Positions 11,271-30,830 of a stretch of 64,000 bases of DNA are shown one piece after another. The translations under genes were made by a program, and so were the position numbers. How positions within the stretch are numbered: the first letter of the stretch is position 1; each line of letters begins with the position of its first letter. The notes below the pieces were generated by a model, which was given only the letters and a program-made list of their open reading frames with translations, made no database searches and was not told the DNA's origin. The stretch lies in contig JAJDDQ010000039.1 in NCBI GenBank assembly GCA_029260215.1, positions 236,313 through 300,312 on the forward strand. Direction: 5' to 3'. This DNA comes from Phycisphaerae bacterium (GTDB lineage Bacteria > Planctomycetota > Phycisphaerae > UBA1845).

Positions 11271-11302
11271 CCAAGCCGAGGGCTTCAGCCCGCGCGGACG
11301 TC
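11271..11302. repeat. Palindromic repeat family C, intergenic copy
   Basis: CCAAGCCGAG then GGCTTCAGCC CGCGCGGACGTC. The hairpin GGGCT-TC-AGCCC corresponds to GGACT-TC-AGTCC in the copy inside rsmE (29839-29873) and GAACT-TC-AGTTC at 22338-22372, so stem positions covary. It lies between malQ and glgB. Confidence 0.7.
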
Positions 11303-22337: not shown

Positions 22338-22372
22338 CCAAACGAGCCGCGAACTTCAGTTCGCGCGGACGC
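22338..22372. repeat. Palindromic repeat family C, intergenic copy
   Basis: CCAAACGAGCCGCG, stem AACTTCAGTT, CGCGCGGACGC. It differs from the copy inside rsmE at three of 35 positions; two of those are the paired stem bases G-C to A-T, a compensatory change that keeps the hairpin. Confidence 0.85.
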
Positions 22373-29636: not shown

Positions 29637-30428
29637 TCACCATTGAGCGAAAAGGGGTCTGACCCCTTTTTCGAGTTGTCCGACGATTGCGGTGGCGGTT
29701 GTTGCGGCGGTTTCTGTGCGCAGGGTGTGGCGGGCGAGGGTTACGGGGTTTGCGCCGGCTTGGATGGCGCTAGTGCGTTCTTCGTTTGTCAGGCCGCCTT
29801 CAGGGCCTATCCAGATGCAAATTGTCTTGGGCGTCTTTGCGTCCGCGCGGACTGAAGTCCGCGGCTCGTTGGGAATGTGGGGGGACGGTTCGGAACAGAT
29901 TGCCAGCAGGGTTTGGTTCTGCTCGGCTGTGTCGGCCAGGAGGCACATGTCGAACTGGTTTGCGGACTGGAGTGTTTCGTCGAATGAAACGGGGGCGTGT
30001 ACGCGCGGCAGCCAAGTGCGGGTGGATTGTCTGGCGGCTTCGATGACGGTGCGCGTCCACTTGTCCACGGCTGACGCGTCGGGTTTGGCGACGCTGCGCT
30101 GGTAGCGCGTGGGTTGAAAAGCCCAGAGGCCTAGCTCGGTACACTTTTCGAACAGGAAGGGTTGTCGCTGACGCCTGGGCATGGCGACGGCTAGCGTTAG
30201 GCGGACCGGTTGTTCGAAGGGTACGTGGGTGGTTTCACTGACCTCGACTTCGACGCTTCCTCGGCGGATGGTAACGATTCGAGCGGTGGCGATGTTGCCT
30301 TGGCCGTCGAAGAGTGCGACTTCGTCGTTAACAGCGGCGCGCATGACTTTGGCGAGGTGGTGTGATTCCTCCTTGGTCAGGGTCTGTCGGCCTGGGGCGA
30401 GGTTGGGTTGGTAGGCTCGGAGTGTCAT
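29637..30428 (-). CDS. rsmE: 16S rRNA m3U1498 methyltransferase with in-frame palindromic insertion
   Basis: A 263-residue SPOUT methyltransferase that N3-methylates U1498 of 16S rRNA. The N-terminal PUA-like domain (HHLAKVMRAAVNDEVALFDGQG) is followed by the SPOUT domain with AMPRRQRQPFLFEKCTELG, then IGPEGGLTNEE (about 204-214) and RHTLRTETAA. ATG 30428 is chosen; the frame stays open to 30791, but that part is translated repeat. Between strands of the SPOUT domain, residues about 186-197 read NEPRTSVRADAK, encoded by a family C palindrome (29839-29873) also found in intergenic DNA at 22338; most RsmE proteins are about 20 residues shorter. A second palindrome encodes the C-terminal KGVRPLF. 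Confidence 0.92.
   Translation of the reverse strand: MTLRAYQPNLAPGRQTLTKEESHHLAKVMRAAVNDEVALFDGQGNIATARIVTIRRGSVEVEVSETTHVPFEQPVRLTLAVAMPRRQRQPFLFEKCTELGLWAFQPTRYQRSVAKPDASAVDKWTRTVIEAARQSTRTWLPRVHAPVSFDETLQSANQFDMCLLADTAEQNQTLLAICSEPSPHIPNEPRTSVRADAKTPKTICIWIGPEGGLTNEERTSAIQAGANPVTLARHTLRTETAATTATAIVGQLEKGVRPLFAQW
29650..29670. repeat. Palindrome AAAAGGGGTC at the rsmE 3' end
   Basis: AAAAGGGGTC-T-GACCCCTTTT, a near-perfect 10-base inverted repeat inside the last codons of rsmE. Runs of A and T at both edges make it look like a bidirectional terminator between the convergent tpx and rsmE genes. Confidence 0.75.
29839..29873. repeat. Palindromic repeat family C inside the rsmE coding sequence
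   Basis: On the minus strand CCCAACGAGCCGCG, stem GACTTCAGTC, CGCGCGGACGC: 32 of 35 bases match the intergenic copy at 22338-22372. It is translated within rsmE as PNEPRTSVRADA and falls in a loop just before the SAM-binding IGPEGG motif. Confidence 0.88.
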
Positions 30429-30830
30429 GCGTTGATTATGGCCGTCGGCGGCTGCGTCACAACCGGCGGGCGACGGGGGTTGGAGATTGTCGGGCGGGGT
30501 GGCCGATATACGTTCGTGCTTTGAGTGGCTGATGAAGAAGGCTTGGCAGGTGGTTCGGTCTGCGTCTGCACCGGCCTGAGACCTGTTCTGTGAAGAGCGC
30601 CGTCGTCCGCACCGGTTACAAACCGGTGCCACACTGTCTGTTGTACCGGCTGGAGGACCGTTTTGTAGAAAACACCGTTGTCCACACCGGTTGCAAACCG
30701 GTGCCACACTGGACACTGTCAGTTGTGCCGGTTGAAGCCCGGTTCTGCACCGGGCACTGTCGTTTGCACCGGTTGGAAACCAGTGCCACACTGAAAGCCC
30801 ACAGTTTTCGACAGGGCTGCGGGATTATAC
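30429..30830. other. Intergenic region filled with family A repeats
   Basis: 402 bases between divergent rsmE and an acidic membrane-protein gene. Bases 30607-30795 are the family A hairpin array; 30429-30606 carries nothing I recognise. Both genes must have their promoters here, close to or inside the repeats. Confidence 0.6.
30607..30795. repeat. Palindromic repeat family A, array of about five degenerate units
   Basis: Hairpin cores start near 30611 (ACCGGTTACAAACCGGT), 30645 (degenerate), 30686 (ACCGGTTGCAAACCGGT), 30728 and 30768, spaced about 34-42 bases. Two cores are followed by GCCACACTG. Read in reverse, the 30686 unit and its flank match the 17995-18020 unit over about 27 bases without a difference. 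Confidence 0.88.

Follow-up and report, generated by a model that had tools for sequence, protein, structure and literature searches.

The rsmE gene of a Phycisphaerae bacterium contains, within its reading frame, a short hairpin that recurs throughout the genome. With a probability of about 0.88, we read this block as a copy of a high-copy REP-like element of the order, which entered rsmE after this lineage had diverged from the relatives sampled, is read through as NEPRTSVRADA, and is tolerated. The element has a high copy number and genome-specific compensating stems, the block is absent from aligned orthologues, and in-frame copies recur in conserved genes. The best-known examples of translated palindromic repeats come from Rickettsia and a few further genomes. 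The phenomenon itself is known in bacteria; what is unusual here is its spread through conserved proteins. The features of the analyzed 64,000-nt stretch of DNA (the window) are listed in Table 1.

Table 1. Positions of rsmE, the hairpin copies, and a second palindrome in the window
Feature	Position	Strand	Remarks
rsmE	29637..30428	-	263 aa; PUA_4 and Methyltrans_RNA domains; one match in the source genome
27-base core of the CGAG hairpin repeat in rsmE	29842..29868	-	In-frame (N)EPRTSVRAD(A)
Second copy of the core	22343..22369	+	Outside called genes; one inner stem pair A-T for G-C
Third copy, degenerate	11272..11298	+	Tag CAAG, inner stem GG/CC, one stem mismatch
Second palindrome, AAAGGGGTCTGACCCCTTT, unrelated to the CGAG hairpin	29651..29669		Codes for part of the RsmE C-terminus (KGVRPLF)

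A hairpin repeat in the rsmE reading frame

The encoded protein matched PF20260 (PUA_4) at residues 17-63 (E 1.3e-13) and PF04452 (Methyltrans_RNA) at residues 72-249 (E 6.8e-40), and the latter match spans the block encoded by the repeat. We aligned RsmE with its counterparts from 29 relatives (30 proteins in total; an RsmE match was present in 52 genomes). The block was absent from all 29, in line with the original prediction, which had also stated that it makes RsmE longer before the SAM-binding IGPEGG motif. The stretch before IGPEGG indeed comprised 45 residues, compared to a modal length of 29 in the 29 relatives (overall range 25-48), but the element core codes for approximately 9 to 11 residues and not for exactly 12, as had been proposed. 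Four of the relatives had 35-48 residues at this place, all without the repeat block. A different insert of approximately 19 residues was seen near the same place in genome G011 (L039).

In the three displayed alignments with solved structures, the block was located in a gapped region (1vhk) or at an alignment break (5vm8, 5o95). The site is a length-variable stretch and probably a surface loop, and RsmE with the block is predicted to probably stay functional. No empty rsmE site was found at the nucleotide level among the listed relatives, whose RsmE proteins were at most 49% identical. The codon score 3' of the block was weak (-1 over 66 codons); thus, the reading frame in this part of rsmE is based on homology. 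A single tRNA gene, tRNA-Gly(TCC), was found in the window; it is located at 30730-30812 on the minus strand, approximately 300 bases upstream of the rsmE start.

Copies in the window and in the genome

Direct comparison of the 35-base stretch at 29839-29873 (minus strand) with the intergenic one at 22338-22372 (plus strand) confirmed the previously noticed identity at 32 of 35 positions. The differences are at positions 3, 15, and 24. As had been predicted, two of them are paired stem bases: positions 15 and 24 form one stem pair, which is G-C in one copy and A-T in the other. The corresponding GA/TC and AA/TT stems are synonymous in the frame used in rsmE. Both copies therefore read NEPRTSVRADA, as was verified by translation for rsmE and from its sequence for the 22338 copy. 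The view that the hairpin is conserved while its bases change holds for these two copies and for the whole family. It holds less well for the copy at 11271, which showed 27/35 identity at the best register, an A/G mismatch in the stem, and a weaker fold.

The repeat pattern had 3 matches in the window and 0 in 100 shuffles, and an Rfam scan of the window gave 0 matches at gathering scores. The fold energies of the rsmE, 22338, and 11271 copies were -14.7, -12.3, and -10.1 kcal/mol, with z values of -1.87, -1.40, and -0.37 relative to composition shuffles; 11, 18, and 70 of 200 shuffles, respectively, folded equally well. The window hairpins are not exceptional in energy for their composition, and the argument is based on copy number and covariation.

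Further genomic copies had been set beforehand as a test, and more than 140 were found. In the source genome (4.97 Mb, 88 contigs), the 27-base core had 177 matches (103 + 74) vs. 0 in the control, and an 18-base piece with at most one mismatch had 141 (73 + 68) vs. 1 for the reversed control. With this core length and copy number, the element falls under the definition of a REP (an imperfect palindrome of 20-40 bp, high copy, mostly intergenic). One could argue that the block is a chance likeness of an ordinary variable RsmE loop or an assembly artifact, since the stretch before GPEGG varies between 25 and 48 residues among relatives and the insertion is known from one draft assembly. However, the rsmE copy matches the consensus of this 177-copy family exactly, and like events were found in ValRS, GH20, and FkbM-type genes and in other assemblies (see below). 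The counts against the controls and the absence of the block from 29 RsmE proteins contradict such an explanation, and we regard its probability as negligible.

Flanks were examined for 102 of the copies in the source genome, compared to the 177 core matches. Thirty-six copies form one loose cluster, and 19 of these were viewed with flanks. Most of the 19 were located inside a longer repeat of approximately 190 bases with ends like an inverted repeat and a right end of approximately GCAGATTGCTGACCTGTTAC (L001, L015, L018, L072, L093, and others, around position 1493 or 2493). L012, L026, and L096 share the right half of the longer repeat only. Possibly, this repeat is a MITE that carries the hairpin along.

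Consensus and stem covariation

The consensus, CGAG-CC-GCGRAC (or GCGGGC)-TTCA-GTYCGC (or GCCCGC)-gc-GGA, was derived from the conserved positions in the 102 examined copies of the source genome together with 74 copies from genome G009, 45 from G007, and 109 from G027. It describes a REP-like hairpin with a two-base (gc) bulge. The CGAG tag was present in 94/102 copies of the source genome, 55/74 of G009, 34/45 of G007, and 98/109 of G027. ACG was found at the variable end in 83/102, 19/74, 29/45, and 21/109 copies, respectively.

The two inner stem pairs alternate between G-C and A-T. Among 215 distinct sequences, 95% of the pair cells were standard, vs. a mean of 89.6% and a maximum of 90.6% in shuffles, which ignore relatedness. 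The source genome contains mostly GA/TC (55/102) and AA/TT (34/102) stems, AA/TT dominates in G007 (43/45), and GG/CC dominates in G009 (61/74) and G027 (102/109). We read these differences by genome as amplification from genome-specific masters.

The covariation of the stem pairs across the family, together with the fold of the rsmE copy at -14.7 kcal/mol, could also suggest that intragenic copies are kept for a function at the RNA level, in which the hairpin would make ribosomes pause or protect the mRNA. However, amplification from genome-specific masters accounts for the covariation, and the fold is unexceptional for its composition (z -1.87; 11/200 shuffles as good). Moreover, known intragenic copies make up only a few percent of those examined in the source genome (at least 4/102), and the aligned orthologues lack the element. 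A selected RNA function is thus improbable.

Occurrence in related genomes

A 21-base version had at least one match in 33 of 60 genomes of the order (source genome included), with counts from 1 to 136; single matches in a genome may be due to chance, because reversed controls reach 3 in a genome. Six or more matches were detected in 18 of the 60 genomes. When 246 genomes of the phylum were sampled, the source genome was the sole match, and the 245 others, which include 16 of the same class from outside the order, gave none. With a 26-base version and at most two mismatches, 279 matches were detected in G027 and 126 in G007, a genome of the same family as the source genome.

In an exact scan of named genomes using the R/Y-stem form, a pattern that would miss the GG/CC form, only the metagenome-assembled genome (MAG) Phycisphaerae bacterium PL23b_bin.28 matched, with 18 stretches. 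The spacing of three copies on one of its contigs equals that on contig C1087 of G007, indicating that G007 is very probably this MAG.

In-frame copies in other genes

At least four of the 102 examined copies in the source genome are intragenic. They are located in the genes for RsmE, ValRS, a GH20 enzyme, and an FkbM-type methyltransferase, and all four are read in the frame xEPRTSVRADx. Gene names were assigned from Pfam hits. The automatic coding thresholds called two of the four, and the copies in rsmE and the GH20 gene were added by homology; thus, the intragenic counts are lower bounds.

In ValRS of the source genome, PF00133 spans residues 55-681, and the element is located at residue 250. 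The ValRS block was absent in 29 of 29 aligned relatives (alignment of 30 of the 36 genomes with ValRS), and the GH20 block was absent in 16 of 16 (alignment of 17 of the 30 fetched loci). The net gain in ValRS was approximately 8 residues relative to the best-matching relative, as counted by eye on the alignment. Thus, loop residues were partly replaced or lost, or the loop was variable beforehand. Other repeat-like inserts were seen in the same loop of relatives (L238, L241, L245), suggesting that tolerated inserts may have a hot spot here.

Intragenic copies were also detected in other genomes. In G009, 6 of 74 examined copies were in genes, encoding PurL-like, UvrA, ValRS (at a different site), CysRS, NuoL-like, and AlaRS proteins. 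Four of 17 copies in G015 and G032 (12 loci) had an intragenic call, with an alpha-2-macroglobulin-like protein (two copies), an ABC transporter, and a PurQ-like protein as hosts. In G027, 21 of 109 examined copies had such a call, and Pfam hits were obtained for part of them: UvrD, amine oxidase (two copies), ThiC, D-Ala ligase-like, protein kinase, Mur-ligase-like, IleRS-like, HypF (two copies), galactokinase-like, PMT-like, AcrB-like (two copies), a multihaem cytochrome, and a vWF protein. The one call among 45 copies in G007 is within a cluster of elements and was left uncounted. The element was spanned by one domain match in RsmE, both ValRS proteins, ThiC, the alpha-2-macroglobulin-like protein, the ABC transporter, the IleRS-like protein, and HypF. 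The Pfam hit was on one side of the element only in the FkbM-type, GH20, NuoL-like, amine oxidase, L347, kinase, PMT-like, and vWF proteins. This recurrence in further proteins and genera supports the original view of a mobile hairpin that is tolerated inside proteins.

Of the six frames of the element, five are open and the sixth contains TGA. Among 28 Pfam-backed entries (a Pfam hit in the same open frame, each gene counted once per frame used), 19 were in the frame xEPR(T/A)S(V/A)RA(D/E)x (p ~5e-8 under equal use of the five frames; 2e-4 with a prior of one third). The one copy of G007 and the loci without a Pfam hit (L212, L368, L375, L386, L396) were excluded from this statistic. In a strict set, in which a domain match spans the element or, by our reading of the table, lies on both sides of it, the main frame was used in 13 of 19 entries (p ~7e-6 for equal use; 2e-3 with the prior of one third). 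Other frames were used in UvrA, NuoL-like, AlaRS, alpha-2-macroglobulin-like (two frames), PurQ-like, galactokinase-like, and PMT-like proteins and in one AcrB copy. Thus, the main frame is preferred, not required.

Such a strong bias over unrelated proteins and genera might be expected if the peptide itself were selected, as a mobile linker or as a tag for degradation or interaction. However, the seven Pfam-backed genes named before AcrB are read only in other frames, the aligned orthologues lack the block, and an equal bias would be predicted if a hydrophilic peptide were simply tolerated. We therefore hold selection of the peptide to be very improbable and prefer the reading of a tolerated insert. 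Rather unlikely, in our view, is also that the element, as a selfish unit, has been shaped for readability: with five open frames, one of them hydrophilic, and synonymous common stems, it could colonize essential genes as a mobile peptide. If this were true, genomes like G027 would be heavily seeded with one repeated peptide.

The data describe a REP-like family that is read in frame in numerous conserved enzymes of uncultured Planctomycetota; it clearly prefers one frame, and its stem variants are genome-specific. The many natural insertions can be used to ask whether such repeats supply new protein segments and at which loops a protein can accommodate a foreign peptide.

Comparison with described repeat families

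Intragenic REPs of the GTAG and CGTC classes have been described for several species; the hosts include uvrA, uvrD, and tRNA synthetase genes, and the intragenic REPs of R. conorii correspond to RPE-4/6 (Di Nocera et al. 2013, PMC3733652). According to the main text of this survey, they are high-copy hairpins of 20-40 bp with a conserved 4-base end tag, which are mostly intergenic and sometimes translated. The element analyzed here shares these properties and differs by its CGAG tag and the two-base GC bulge in the stem.

As described there, the GTAG superfamily carries an unpaired GTAG (or GYAG, GYRG, GTRG, GTMG; GTGG in one family) at one end and is often located near RAYT genes (PMC3733652). 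Our element has CGAG instead (94/102 copies in the source genome) and was found at none of the four Y1 genes of the source genome and at 3 of 50 Y1 loci of relatives, more than 600 bp from the gene. The CGTC superfamily has a CGTC end, a stem that almost invariably opens with A-T pairs, and a mostly CCA-like tail (PMC3733652). Here, the outer stem pairs are C-G, and the CGTC-like end varies in the family. Assignment to the CGTC class on the basis of the rsmE copy, whose reverse strand starts with CGTC, was rejected because this end varies in relatives.

The original prediction had recognized the pattern of Rickettsia palindromic elements. In its behavior, the element fits: like RPE-4 and RPE-6, which are palindromes present in frame in many unrelated, likely functional proteins (PMC3733652), it is an in-frame insertion that orthologues lack (RsmE, ValRS, GH20). 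In its class features, it does not. RPE-4/6 were assigned to the CGTC class, with its A-T stem start and CCA-like tail, and occur in another host phylum (PMC3733652), whereas the tag, first stem pairs, and tail of our element are different. It is thus set apart from RPE-4/6 by described class features and is not filed as an RPE.

The main text of PMC3733652 contains no word starting with CGAG, and no title or abstract start reporting this CGAG family was found in the open-licence literature, including under REP and Phycisphaer. The family looks new and fits neither of the two superfamilies as they are described in the survey.

Transposase genes and sister hairpins

The source genome has four Y1 transposase genes. 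The element was not found in the fetched ±1.5 kb of any of them, and these flanks were rejected as its source. We also scanned 50 Y1 loci of relatives, requiring at least four perfect inner stem pairs. Hairpins with a CTTCAG loop and other tags were located within approximately 300 bp of the gene in five loci (L144, L145, L151, L171, L173). According to a rough estimate, the three loci with the CGAG type are not far from the expectation based on copy density. In L145, L151, and L173, the hairpins start with GTAG, TTAG, or GTTG, followed by CC...GG. They resemble our element in the CTTCAG loop, the GCC...GG outer stem, and the similar size, but have a perfect stem without bulge, another tag, and a position near transposase genes.

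The GTAG-type sister, given as TAGCCAGGGNCTTCAG or TAGCCAGGG, had 0 matches in the source genome; TAGCCAGGG had 124 in G020, a genome without the CGAG type. Dependence on a GTAG-type sister was therefore rejected for the source genome (177 CGAG vs. 0 sister matches). In G020, the 124 matches are to the sister REP TAGCCAGGGNCTTCAGNCCCTGG (at most two mismatches), and the Y1 gene in L145 is flanked by such copies on both sides.

Transposition of a single-stranded hairpin in trans by a HUH (Y1) tyrosine transposase has been proposed for REPs. Since other-tag hairpins are located near Y1 genes and the CGAG type is not, we infer by analogy that our element, for which no dedicated transposase was found, may be moved in this way. 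Although REP-like, the family has no obvious transposase; according to the main text of the 2013 survey, CGTC repeats likewise lack a dedicated one (PMC3733652).

Our model for rsmE is as follows. The copy would have arisen by transposition, perhaps of a single-stranded hairpin moved in trans by a HUH transposase, and would have landed before the SAM-binding GPEGG motif, in a stretch that varies in length and probably forms a loop. Read in frame, it would add a short charged, probably flexible peptide. Because of this site and frame, the copy would persist as a tolerated selfish insert and not as a selected feature of RsmE.

The second palindrome in rsmE, AAAGGGGTCTGACCCCTTT (Table 1), is present at 5 places in the source genome (at most two mismatches). 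It fits the GGGGWSAS motif that was reported for inverted repeats flanking tyrosine transposases (PMC3733652). Inverted stretches resembling AAGGGGTCGGGAGTCGTTT border the Y1 gene in L061.
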